41,929 nucleotides of DNA, from assembly GCA_018242005.1 (NCBI GenBank), contig JAFECU010000264.1, positions 1-41,929 on the forward strand, in the 5' to 3' direction. The position numbers were made by a program, and so were the translations under genes. The notes under the pieces are model-generated. The model was given only the letters and a program-made list of their open reading frames with translations. It ran no database searches and had not been told where the DNA came from. This stretch comes from Pseudomonadota bacterium. GTDB lineage: Bacteria > Pseudomonadota > Gammaproteobacteria > Burkholderiales > Burkholderiaceae_C. Shown here in pieces: positions 25,452 to 29,213 of this stretch. The stretch's first letter is position 1. Every line of letters starts with the position of its first letter.

Positions 25452-25934
25452 TCAGCGCCAGCCCAGCAGCCGGTCCAGCGACAGCGGCCCCGCGCCGCGC
25501 CCCGCCAGGTAGATCAGCAGGGTGGCCCACGACAGGTGCGTGGGCCAGGCGTCGGGGTAGACAAAGACCTCGATCACGAGCGTCATGCCCAGCAGCGCCA
25601 GTGCCGACAGTCTTGTGGCCAGGCCCAGCACCAGCAGCAGCGGGAAGAGGTGCTCGGCCGTGGCGGCAAGGGGTGCGGCGATCTCGGGCGCGATCAGCGG
25701 CAGCCGGTATTCCTCGCGGAACAGCGCGATGGCGCTGTCCGTGACGTGGAACCAGCCCGTGACCTTGGTGCGGCCCGACAGGAAGAAGATGGCGGCAATG
25801 GCCACGCGCGCGCCCAGCGCAAGCAGCACATGGGGTGTAAGCGCTTCGAGCCGGTCGGCCAGCCGGGCCTGGATGGTGTGCAGCCAGGAGGATGCGGCCT
25901 CCCTGGGTGCTTGGGATTGGGACAGGACGGACAT
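25452..25934 (-). CDS. DoxX family membrane protein of the bufferin-type operon
   Basis: A 160-residue inner-membrane protein of the DoxX family with four predicted helices (about 38-58, 75-95, 100-125, 130-148); F-F-L-S-G-R-x-K at the end of the first helix and the E-H-L-F-P-L motif (about 101-106) are typical. The ATG at 25934 follows GAGGAG. It is the last gene of the operon, 10 bases after the DUF2063 stop. DoxX proteins are frequent partners of DUF692/DUF2063 clusters; a role in redox or quinone-linked chemistry for the modification or export of the peptide is suggested but not shown. Confidence 0.88.
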
Positions 25935-25944
25935 GATGCTCTCC

Positions 25945-26706
25945 TCAGACGGGGGTGAAATCGTGCGCCAGCGCGCCCGCGCGCAGCAGCTGGGCGAGTA
26001 GGGCGCCAAGATCGGCGCCAGGGTGCTGGCCCAGCGTGGCGGCCGCCGCCTCGCCCAGCGACAGGTCCGTCGCGCACAGGTCCAGCAGCGTGCAGCCCGC
26101 GGCAGGCAGCGCACACCAGCCCACGGCGGCCCCGGGCCGCGTGAGAAGCGCGCCCTCGCCCTGCCAGGTCAGCGGCGCGGCAAGCGGCAGGGCCTCGCGG
26201 TGGCGCTGCCACAGGGTGTAGGCGGGGTGCTCGGCGCACCAGAGCCAGCGTGCCGCGGGATGGGGCCGCAGGTGCAGACCGCCCAGGGCCTCGGGCGGCA
26301 GCGCGACCAGGTGGGCCGCGTTGGGCAGGGGTGCGTCGGCGGCGCTGTGGCTTTCGGTCCACAGCCGGTCGAGCCGCGCCACGTCGGGCAAATAGGGCAG
26401 CGCGGCCGTGGGCGCCCAGTGCGCAAGATGGCTGGCAAAGCCTTCCCCATAGAGCAGCAGCTGCCCGTCGCTGGGCGGGTGGCGCCGCATGAAGGCCAGG
26501 GCCGAGCCGTCGAAGCAGTCGCCACCCAGCAGCTGGCGCACCGTGGGGTAGTTGGCCCGCAACGCATCCAGGCTGCCCTGGGTCACGGTGTTGCGGTAGA
26601 CGGCAAAGCCTGGCTGCGCCGCGAGCGCCGCCAGCCATGGCGGCCGGGGGGCAGTTGCATCGCGCAGGGCGGCCGCGATGCCGTCCTGGAAAGTCGTCAG
26701 GCGCAT
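25945..26706 (-). CDS. DUF2063 (HvfC/BufC-like) partner of the DUF692 enzyme
   Basis: A 253-residue cytoplasmic protein with the DUF2063 'putative DNA-binding' N-terminal domain (about 1-95; F-A-V-Y-R-N-T-V, L-x-x-N-Y-P-T-V, L-L-G-G-D-x-F) and a C-terminal domain (about 105-253). In bufferin and methanobactin-like systems this protein forms a complex with the DUF692 oxidase and helps deliver the precursor peptide; the DNA-binding name is historical. Its start overlaps the DUF692 gene by ten bases, indicating coupled translation. Assignment as BufC/HvfC rests on family and neighbourhood. Confidence 0.88.
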
Positions 26707-27557
26707 GGTGCGGCCTCCGGTGAATGCACGGCCGCCAGCAGGCCCTGCGCGCGCTCGCGTTCGGCCAGGAGGTCGGCAAGTGGCGGGATCTCGGCGTCGC
26801 GCTCTATCAGCGTGGCAATGGCGCGACCCGCTCGGTTGAGCACGCGCTCGTACAGCGCCCAGACGGCCTCGGCCACGGGGGCGTCGTGGCTGTCGATCAG
26901 CAAGGCCTCGCCCCAGCCAGGGTCGGCATGATGGCCTGCAAGGTGGATTTCGACCACGGCGTGCAGCGGAAAGGCGTCGAGGTAGTCCTCGGCGCGCGCA
27001 CCCAGGTTGCGCGCACTCACGTACACGTTGTTCACGTCGAGCAGCAGCGCGCATCCCGTGCGGCGCACGAGTTCGGCGAGGAAGTCGGTCTCGCTCCAAT
27101 CGTGTCCCGCAAGGTGCAGGTAGTGCGCCGGGTTCTCGACCGCAATGCTGCGGCCCAGCCGGTCCTGCACGCGGGCGATGTTGGCCGCGATGCGCACGAG
27201 CGCCTCGCGGCTGCGCGGAAACGGCAGCAGGTCGGGCAGGTACTGCCCGCGCCAGGCCGACCAGGCCAGGTGCTCGGAGATGAGCGCGGGCTGCAAGCGC
27301 TGCGCCAGCCGCGCGAGCCGCTCCAGCGCTGCATCGTCCGGCGGCGCATCCGCCGCGAGCGACAGCGACACGCCGTGCAGCGACAGCGGGTGGCGCGCGC
27401 GCAAGGCCTCCAGCCAGGCCAGGCGCGGGCCGCCGTCCACGCCGTAGTTCTCTGGGTGCAACTCCCACCACAGGCTTGGCGCCTGCAGCGTGACTGCGTC
27501 CTCGAAGTGCTGGGGCTTGAGCCCCAGGCCGGCGCTCCGTAGAGGCGTGGCGGTCAT
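26697..27557 (-). CDS. DUF692 multinuclear iron oxidase (HvfB/BufB-like)
   Basis: A 286-residue MNIO enzyme that, in characterised members, uses a cluster of iron ions to oxidatively rearrange cysteine residues of a partner peptide. It has a TIM barrel with the metal ligands in place: H61, E95-H96, E141-N142, D174 with N176-N177, E203-x-H205 with H209, and D222-x-H224. The family N-terminal W-E-L-H-P-E-N-Y is at 31-38. It lies nine bases after the DUF2282 peptide gene and overlaps the DUF2063 gene, forming the core of a RiPP-type operon. The likely substrate is the four-cysteine peptide encoded just upstream. Confidence 0.92.
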   Translation of the reverse strand: MTATPLRSAGLGLKPQHFEDAVTLQAPSLWWELHPENYGVDGGPRLAWLEALRARHPLSLHGVSLSLAADAPPDDAALERLARLAQRLQPALISEHLAWSAWRGQYLPDLLPFPRSREALVRIAANIARVQDRLGRSIAVENPAHYLHLAGHDWSETDFLAELVRRTGCALLLDVNNVYVSARNLGARAEDYLDAFPLHAVVEIHLAGHHADPGWGEALLIDSHDAPVAEAVWALYERVLNRAGRAIATLIERDAEIPPLADLLAERERAQGLLAAVHSPEAAPCA

Positions 27558-27566
27558 GGCGGTGGC

Positions 27567-27863
27567 TCAGGACTTGATGGGCATCAGCGACCCCATGCCC
27601 CGGGGCGTCTTGATGCTGGTGCAGGTGCCGGCGGGCACGAACTTCCAGGAGTTGCCTTGATAGTCCATCTTGGACGTGCCCGCGCAGGTCGTGCCGGGGC
27701 CGGCGGCGCAGTCGTTCTTGCCGGCCATGGCCACGCCGAAGCATTTCTCCATGGCGGGCGTTGCCATCGCATCGGGTTTCTTCATGTCGTCGGCCTGAGC
27801 CAGGGCGGCGCCAGAGGCCAGGGCGGCAAGCGCGAGTGCGGCGAGTGACAGGGGGGTGTTCAT
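27567..27863 (-). CDS. DUF2282 precursor peptide (bufferin/BufA-like)
   Basis: A 98-residue exported peptide of the DUF2282 family. Residues 1-23 are a signal peptide (Ala/Leu-rich, ending AQA). The mature part has exactly four cysteines, C41 (E-K-C-F-G), C52 (K-N-D-C-A), C60 (T-T-C-A-G-T) and C81 (G-T-C), in the spacing known for this family. DUF2282 proteins of the bufferin group have cysteines converted to thiooxazoles by the DUF692 enzyme and bind copper in the periplasm. The ATG at 27863 is preceded by GGAG; its promoter is at 27925-27952. That this one is modified or binds copper is inference from family and operon. Confidence 0.9.
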
Positions 27864-27952: not shown

Positions 27953-27983
27953 GCGCGGGTGGATGTTTATTTCTGCGCGCCGC

Positions 27984-28011
27984 TGTAACCTTCAGGGCAT
28001 TCGCCACGAAT
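27984..28011 (+). promoter_or_regulatory. ECF-type promoter, probable autoregulation of the sigma gene
   Basis: TGTAACC (27984-27990), 16 bases, CGAAT (28007-28011), with the sigma-factor ATG at 28027, so the leader would be about ten bases. It matches the divergent promoter at 27925-27952 in both boxes and in spacing, implying that the encoded sigma factor reads both. Confidence 0.75.
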
Positions 28012-28026
28012 GGTTCATGGACATCT

Positions 28027-28575
28027 ATGGAAACCGAAGAGCGGCTGCGAACCTGGCTGGTGCAGGGGCTGGCGGGCGATGCCGAGGCTTATCAGTGCTT
28101 TCTCAAGGCGCTGAGTGCCCATGTGCGCGCCTTCCTGCGCCGCCGCCTCGCGCAGCGCCCCGACGATGTGGAGGACCTCGTGCAAGAAACCCTGCTGGCT
28201 GTGCACCACCAGCGCCATACCTACCGCCCCGAGCTGCCGTTGACGGCCTGGGTGCATGCGATCGCGCGCTACAAGCTCGTGGACTGGCTGCGCGCGCGTG
28301 CTCCCAAGGAGGCGGTCACGGACTCGTTCGACGACGGCGGCAGCGAGTTTTTCGCGAGCACCGACGACGAGGCCGCCATGGCCCGGCGTGACCTGGGCCA
28401 GCTGCTGCAGGCGCTGCCCGAGCGCCAGCGCCTGCCCATCGTGCACATGAAGCTCGAAGGACTGTCCGTGGTCGAGACCGCGCGGCTCACGGGCATGTCG
28501 GAATCGGCGGTCAAGGTCGGCGTACACCGCGGGCTCAAGGCCCTGGCGGCGCTGGTCAAGAGGAGTGCGCCATGA
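28027..28575 (+). CDS. ECF sigma factor (SigF/NrsF type)
   Basis: A 182-residue extracytoplasmic-function sigma factor. Region 2 (about 17-92) holds [15 protein letters not shown] and the helix with [15 protein letters not shown]; region 4 (about 122-178) holds the recognition helix [18 protein letters not shown]. The ATG at 28027 is placed just after a matching promoter; the longer frame from 27892 runs across that promoter and is rejected. The stop overlaps the start of the DUF1109 gene (ATGA), giving a coupled sigma/anti-sigma pair. It probably controls the divergent bufferin-like operon. Confidence 0.92.
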
Positions 28576-29213
28576 ACACCGACGAACTCATCCACCTGCT
28601 GGCTGCCGACGCCCATCCCGTGCCTGCGCACGGCGTGGAGCGGCGCTTTGTGCTGGCCGTGGCGCTGGGCCTGGCGGGCGCGGCCGCTCTCATGCTGAGC
28701 GTCTTTGGCCTGCGCCACGATTGGGCCGTGGTGGTCGCGCTGCCCATGTTCTGGGGCAAGTTCGCGCTGGGCGGATCGCTGGCCGCCCTGGGCTTGAGCG
28801 CGCTGCTGCGCCTGGCGCGACCGGGCATGCCGTGGCAGCGCGCGGCCCTGTGGCTGGCCCTGCCGCCCGCTGCGATGTGGTTGCTGGCGGGCCTGGCGCT
28901 GGCCTCTGTCCTGCCGGCCGAGCGGCTGCCCCTGCTGCTGGGCAGCACCTGGCGCAGCTGCCCGTTCAACATCACGCTGCTGTCGCTGCCGTCCCTCGCG
29001 GCGCTGCTATGGGCATTGCGCGGCGCGGCGCCCACGCGCCTGGCATGGAGTGGTGCGGGCGCCGGCTTGCTCGCGGGCGCCTTGGGCGTGCTCGTGTATG
29101 CGCTGCACTGCCCCGAAATGGCGGCACCGTTCGTCGCCCTGTGGTACCTGGCGGGCATGGCCCTGCCCACGGCGCTGGGCGCGCTGCTGGGGCCGCGCCT
29201 GCTGCGGTGGTGA
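28572..29213 (+). CDS. DUF1109/NrsF family anti-sigma factor
   Basis: A 213-residue inner-membrane protein with six predicted helices (about 26-48, 53-79, 92-114, 135-150, 157-178, 184-206) and a short cytoplasmic N-terminus that would hold the sigma factor. The two cysteines conserved in NrsF proteins are present, C130 (W-R-S-C-P-F-N) and C180 (L-H-C-P-E). In Caulobacter, NrsF restrains SigF and the cysteine pair is needed for the response to chromium and cadmium. Here the stimulus is likely a metal or oxidant (inference). It overlaps the sigma gene by four bases and converges on cca, with ten bases between the stops. Confidence 0.9.

Follow-up and report, generated by a model that had tools for sequence, protein, structure and literature searches.

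The window analysed here is the whole of a 41,929-nt stretch (positions 1-41,929, forward strand) of contig JAFECU010000264.1, from the Burkholderiaceae_C genome GCA_018242005.1, a 313-contig assembly that is ~91% complete. It contains at 25452-29213 what is probably a Buf1 bufferin locus under the control of an extracytoplasmic function (ECF) sigma switch of the ECF16 (SigF/RpoQ) type and working by copper buffering; we place the probability of this reading at roughly 80%. A minus-strand operon (27863-25452) encodes a DUF2282 peptide, an MNIO (DUF692) enzyme, its DUF2063 partner and a DoxX protein, and a divergent plus-strand unit (28027-29213) encodes an ECF sigma factor and NrsF. The successive intervals along the operon are a 9-bp gap, a 10-bp overlap of the DUF2063 gene with the end of the MNIO gene, and a 10-bp gap; the sigma and NrsF genes share an ATGA overlap, and all six proteins pass their Pfam cut-offs. 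The original prediction for this DNA had described a locus for a bufferin-type ribosomally synthesised and post-translationally modified peptide, paired with a SigF/NrsF-type sigma/anti-sigma couple. Gene calls and family matches bear out its coordinates and gene content, and the identification itself draws support from family matches, from conserved residues and most of all from the promoter data. The layout of such loci is already published; what the present analysis adds is the promoter evidence in relatives, a candidate promoter for the gig genes of Cupriavidus metallidurans, a site at msrPQ, and the exchangeable outputs of the switch.

The promoter of Caulobacter SigF is GTAACC-N16-CGAA (PMC3511200) and that of ECF16 factors in general (T/C)GTAAC-N17-CGAA (PMC8315932); here and below, published work is cited from the available excerpts of each paper. 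Exact GTAACC-N16-CGAA occurs twice in the window, one match facing each unit, and was absent from 100 shuffles. Both matches lie inside the 163-bp gap between the divergent units, 33 bp apart, with motif starts 88 bp from the peptide start codon and 42 bp from the sigma start codon. The preceding base is T at the sigma-side site, which fits (T/C)GTAAC, and G at the peptide-side site. The promoter before each unit had been missed in the original prediction.

The motif recurs at the same places in relatives. A first sample comprised the window genome and related ones, 100 in all, and NrsF scores above the cut-off in 19 of these. A search for DUF2282 genes, which covered the 19 and another 11 out of the remaining 81, gave matches in 18 of the 30. 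The NrsF-negative controls (11 for DUF2282 and 30 for msrP, out of 81) were picked in handle order from the more complete genomes, and in this sample as in the second, each query gene was counted once per locus, by its best match. Twelve bufferin genes were recovered in 11 NrsF-positive genomes and seven in NrsF-negative ones. When the motif was scored as nine fixed bases within at most ~320 bp upstream, it preceded 7/12 of the former exactly and 10/12 with at most one mismatch, and none of the latter seven with at most one mismatch (Fisher p 0.0007 for 10/12 against 0/7, a value that is only indicative because the compared genomes are related and the counts are not independent). The two NrsF-positive bufferin genes without a motif both belong to one genome (G033), where they lie on contigs other than that of its NrsF gene.

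A second sample, a contig scan with an NrsF alignment from which the best 80 of 337 relatives were taken, was scored with the third base of the -10 element left free. Peptide and MNIO are both present in 38 of these 80 loci, and the motif stands upstream of the peptide gene in every one of the 38, with CGAA in 37 and CGTA in one (L123). It also precedes the sigma unit in 35 of the 38, the exceptions being L144, L168 and L152; in L144 and L168 the peptide operon is oriented like sigma-nrsF and the only motif lies before the peptide gene, such that one promoter may serve all six genes. Across the 80 loci (791,932 bp) there are 154 exact motifs, compared with 1 for the reversed control. On the sigma side, the motif starts at an almost fixed distance from the start of the gene (46 bp at 46 of 72 assigned sites, 42 bp in the window), which implies a very short 5' leader. 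The two samples probably overlap, with some loci coming from the same genomes (e.g., L133, L168).

The peptide itself has exactly four cysteines, as had been predicted, at positions 41, 52, 60 and 81, and all four are kept in every one of the 40 sequences of an alignment that joins the window to 39 loci. Its N-terminus has a hydrophobic stretch at residues 3-24 followed by an Ala-x-Ala-type site, which by eye resemble a signal sequence. In the linker, three methionines precede the first cysteine, as they do in 10 of the 40 homologues, and methionine makes up 9.2% of residues 23-98, compared with a median of 4.4% across the 40. One DUF2282 gene was found in this assembly. We dropped a Buf2 identity for the peptide, since it scores 18.7 bits against the NCBIfam BufA2 equivalog cut-off of 60 and has four cysteines rather than six or twelve. 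Against solved structures the peptide gave two weak matches to LIM proteins (best E 0.049), which we judged to be chance.

The MNIO matches PF05114 (MbnB_TglH_ChrH) with 313.9 bits and passes the NCBIfam model MNIO_BufB (NF050167) with 345.6 bits against a cut-off of 310; a methanobactin cassette was dropped as an identity (MbnB equivalog, 61.5 vs 325 bits). Its solved relatives are 3bww and MbnB (7dz9/7tcr). Nine ligand-type residues (H61, H96, E141, D174, N177, H205, D222, H224 and E252), which, in line with published MNIO work, we take to be iron ligands, are present in 39/39 sequences (the window and the 38 peptide-and-MNIO loci), in keeping with the claim that the enzyme retains all of its metal ligands. 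Eight of the nine align with identical residues in 7dz9, and H61 aligns with 3BWW. In HvfB, N175, D242 and H244 are the site-3 ligands (PMC13419390). A sequence search for solved relatives of the DUF2063 partner returned none at E 0.1.

The ECF sigma factor has both expected domains (Sigma70_r2, 46.1 bits; Sigma70_r4_2, 49.1 bits) and passes NF009188 with 296.4 bits against a cut-off of 250. The two conserved cysteines that had been noted in NrsF, Cys130 and Cys180, are kept in 14/14 aligned sequences. The corresponding pair in Caulobacter NrsF is C131/C181 (PMC3511200), and by that analogy we infer that the pair lies on the periplasmic side.

The closest published counterpart is gigPABT-rpoQ-rsqA of C. 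metallidurans CH34 (PMC10304878), which has the same six genes in the same divergent order. Local identities between CH34 and the window are 60% for the peptide, 66% for the MNIO, 48% for the DUF2063 protein, 61% for DoxX, 65% for the sigma factor and 51% for NrsF. CH34 also has a divergent pair of exact motifs, separated by 34 bp compared with 33 bp here. The gig genes are induced by copper and gold and answer silver as well, and in unchallenged cells gigP showed no upstream start site; the peptide-side motif of CH34 is a concrete candidate for the unmapped gigP promoter. Among the openly licensed papers listed in a term search, we found no earlier description of the gig-side motif, and the rpoQ passage in the excerpt of PMC3511200 does not concern gig. 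For the sigma-side site, novelty is unlikely, since the same excerpt, citing earlier work, states that SigF-promoter-like sequences precede sigF homologues in other bacteria.

The Caulobacter SigF-NrsF regulon (CC3254-CC3257, CC2907-CC2905 and msrPQ; PMC3511200, PMC8224329) is built from the same gene families, and Caulobacter and the window genome have in common the promoter consensus, the NrsF cysteine pair and a promoter site at msrP. Caulobacter has a second bufferin cluster, a difference from the one DUF2282 gene found in the ~91% complete assembly here. Cu, Cr and Cd all induce the Caulobacter SigF regulon, bufferins included, a sigF mutant shows sensitivity to copper, and msrPQ is a regulon member that is raised by copper. 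Sigma and NrsF genes have also been reported in Buf1 clusters (PMC12452194), and we found no essential difference between the window locus and this described category. Maturation chemistry, which the original prediction considered to be open in this lineage, has been assigned in a relative: in Caulobacter bufferin 1 the central two cysteines become 5-thiooxazoles and the outer two form a disulphide, and DUF2282 products bind copper (PMC12452194, PMC12668002).

By analogy with these systems, a mechanism may be proposed in which the sigma factor is held at rest by membrane NrsF. Periplasmic copper or another thiol-reactive stress would act on NrsF, probably through Cys130 and Cys180 as in Caulobacter, and would free the sigma factor. 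The two putative GTAACC-N16-CGAA promoters would then come into use, one for the peptide operon and the other, to a certain extent, for the sigma unit itself; judging from the sigma-side motif, autoregulation is likely. In the cytoplasm, the MNIO and its DUF2063 partner would oxidise the two central precursor cysteines to 5-thiooxazoles, as reported for Caulobacter Buf1, and the outer two would presumably pair in a disulphide. Once exported by Sec, the peptide would sequester periplasmic copper, with buffering by its thiooxazole cysteines, as we infer from the same Caulobacter product. The same sigma factor probably drives msrPQ, whose products would repair oxidised methionines in periplasmic proteins.

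Several observations weigh against this reading and temper our confidence in it. In C. metallidurans, gig expression does not need rpoQ, and rpoQ-rsqA was assigned to RpoD in unchallenged cells; control of gig by RpoQ has not been demonstrated, according to the excerpt of PMC11022561. We considered whether a second NrsF-paired sigma factor could keep gig on without rpoQ, and this was not supported, as the CH34-like genome (G130, whose coordinates match CH34) has one NrsF. In Caulobacter, autoregulation of sigF is not strong, its promoter region answers another regulator too, and survival under dichromate or cadmium is not lowered by loss of sigF (PMC3511200). Two of the proteins fall short of NCBIfam models for their presumed types, with NrsF at 135.4 vs 300 bits for the Caulobacter-type equivalog AntiSigF_NrsF (NF042994) and DoxX at 42.9 bits vs a cut-off of 80 for HvfX (NF050144). 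A structure model of the peptide was discarded (mean pLDDT 54.2, pTM 0.33); it was made from an alignment of 35 rows (A2), namely the window and 34 of the 39 locus peptides, after removal by hand of four near-duplicates (L114, L126, L167, L175) and one sequence with a doubtful start (L177). The whole genome has 4 exact motifs and 4 matches to the reversed control pattern, a count that is uninformative and leaves the weight on position and conservation, the latter subject to the relatedness of the compared genomes. Finally, the site at msrP, discussed below, is missing in 9 of 13 NrsF-positive genomes with this gene.

Two of the four exact motifs in the genome are those in the window. The third, at C147:10799-10824 (L003:1501-1526), starts 86 bp upstream of the msrP start codon. 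In the first sample, msrP was above the cut-off in 13/19 NrsF-positive genomes, and 4 of the 13 have the exact motif upstream (the window genome G000, G006, G010 and G097); all 30 NrsF-negative genomes searched have msrP, with no exact motif and one site with a single mismatch. The CH34-like genome has no exact motif at msrP, a point in which it differs from the window genome. Of 27 exact motifs in six genomes, those at peptide, sigma and msrP genes were assigned, which takes in only a minority of the 11 in G097. The exact site at msrPQ, taken with the Caulobacter parallel, indicates that the bufferin is probably not the only output of the switch, and that 'dedicated', the word used in the original prediction, is too strong; msrPQ belongs to the regulon only occasionally. 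We took the fourth exact motif (C32:1358, L002) to be chance, as it lies where reading frames overlap, one of which looks by eye like a transposase.

One may postulate an alternative scenario, possible though not favoured, in which oxidants (hypochlorite, sulphur oxidation) are the signal for the switch and copper acts only as an oxidiser of sulphur; the bufferin would then be a thiol and methionine sink, and MsrPQ its repair. The third exact site before msrPQ fits this scenario, as do the contents of the 42 of 80 NrsF loci without peptide plus MNIO (e.g., L170:2414-4244): a methionine-rich pentapeptide-repeat (MXKDX) reading frame is found in 27 of the 42 and an MsrP-like molybdoenzyme in 27. 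The divergent motif pair is still present in 36 of the 42. A peptide gene does occur in one of them, L176, close to the end of its contig, and this may be a bufferin locus that is cut short. In P. xenovorans, the genes after that of a penta_MxKDx protein (67.5 bits, cut-off 41) encode a cytochrome-b-like protein and a molybdoenzyme that falls below the MsrP cut-off (87.8 vs 207 bits). Work on MrpX of Azospira reportedly concerns a methionine-rich peptide as well. The P. xenovorans-type loci resemble BcrXQP, a system that responds to hypochlorous acid, and the MrpX peptide cited in the same excerpt, which also gives hypochlorous acid as the signal that the ECF16 factor of Brucella answers (PMC8315932). 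On the other side, metals (Cu, Cr and Cd) induce the Caulobacter SigF regulon with its bufferins, copper sensitivity follows from mutation of sigF, gig is induced by Cu and Au, and published bufferins bind copper; these points argue against the scenario.

That the peptide mainly sequesters another metal in this lineage (Au, Ag, Cd, Hg or a chromate-related species) is quite improbable. The answer of gig to gold and silver and the existence of MerC-bufferin fusions (PMC12452194) speak for it, as do two genes of the window, one with a cation-efflux (CDF) domain (1521-4673) and one of HlyD type (37613-38842), neither of them adjoining the locus. Copper, however, is the metal reported to be bound by DUF2282 products, and the direct neighbours scanned on one side of the locus (thioredoxin, DUF2905 and a glyoxalase-type gene) are not metal-specific. 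Least probable of all is that the sigma/NrsF unit is a mere neighbour of a bufferin operon run by another regulator, for although gig is still expressed without rpoQ in C. metallidurans, exact SigF-type promoters precede both units here and the motif precedes the peptide gene in all 38 peptide-and-MNIO loci and in none of the seven NrsF-negative cases.

An extension of the preferred reading, copper buffering under the ECF16 switch, is doubtful. In it, a single switch in this clade would govern a periplasmic sulphur programme of two parts: a bufferin whose methionines and modified cysteines both hold copper, and MsrPQ, encoded at another locus, which keeps those methionines reduced, with the peptide linker as a direct client of MsrP. 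Were this true, the bufferin would be a hybrid between copper buffers and the methionine-rich peptides of other ECF16 loci. Those loci have the same sigma/NrsF module and promoter pair as the window and a small sulphur-rich peptide among their outputs; they differ in having a methionine-rich peptide where the window has bufferin and MNIO. One sigma/NrsF module appears with interchangeable outputs (bufferin, or methionine-rich peptide plus molybdoenzyme) behind the same divergent promoter pair, and comparing the two types of locus would bear on whether NrsF senses metal or oxidised sulphur. The locus itself is ordinary for its kind, and its value lies in the testable points that come from comparison.

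Table 1. Coordinates of the bufferin locus in the window, with related features of the same genome and of C. metallidurans CH34.
Feature	Position	Strand	Support
DUF2282 precursor peptide, 98 aa	27567-27863	-	PF10048 92.1 bits (cut-off 22.4)
MNIO (DUF692) maturase BufB, 286 aa	26697-27557	-	PF05114, NF050167
DUF2063 partner (BufC / PME1 type), 253 aa	25945-26706	-	PF09836 69.0 bits (cut-off 27.2)
DoxX-family membrane protein, GigT-like, 160 aa	25452-25934	-	PF07681 61.2 bits (cut-off 23.6)
Putative SigF/ECF16-type promoter, peptide operon	27951-27926	-	exact GTAACC-N16-CGAA
Putative SigF/ECF16-type promoter, sigma-nrsF unit	27985-28010	+	exact GTAACC-N16-CGAA
ECF sigma factor, SigF/RpoQ-like, 182 aa	28027-28575	+	Sigma70_r2, Sigma70_r4_2, NF009188
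NrsF (DUF1109) membrane anti-sigma factor, 213 aa	28572-29213	+	PF06532 243.0 bits (cut-off 26.8)
msrP	L003:1587-2585		MsrP 484.5 bits (NCBIfam, cut-off 207)
msrQ, overlapping msrP gene	L030:2884-3537		MsrQ 176 bits (cut-off 130)
CH34 motif pair between gigP and rpoQ	L190:2669, L190:2704; NC_007974.2 ~1315143-1315228	-, +	exact

Elsewhere in the window, the cation-efflux domain reading frame lies ~21 kb from the locus and the other, which is HlyD/CusB-like, ~8 kb from it. Directly beside the locus, a gene for thioredoxin 2 (TrxC, zinc-ribbon type; 25001-25444) is convergent with the end of doxX, 7 bp away.

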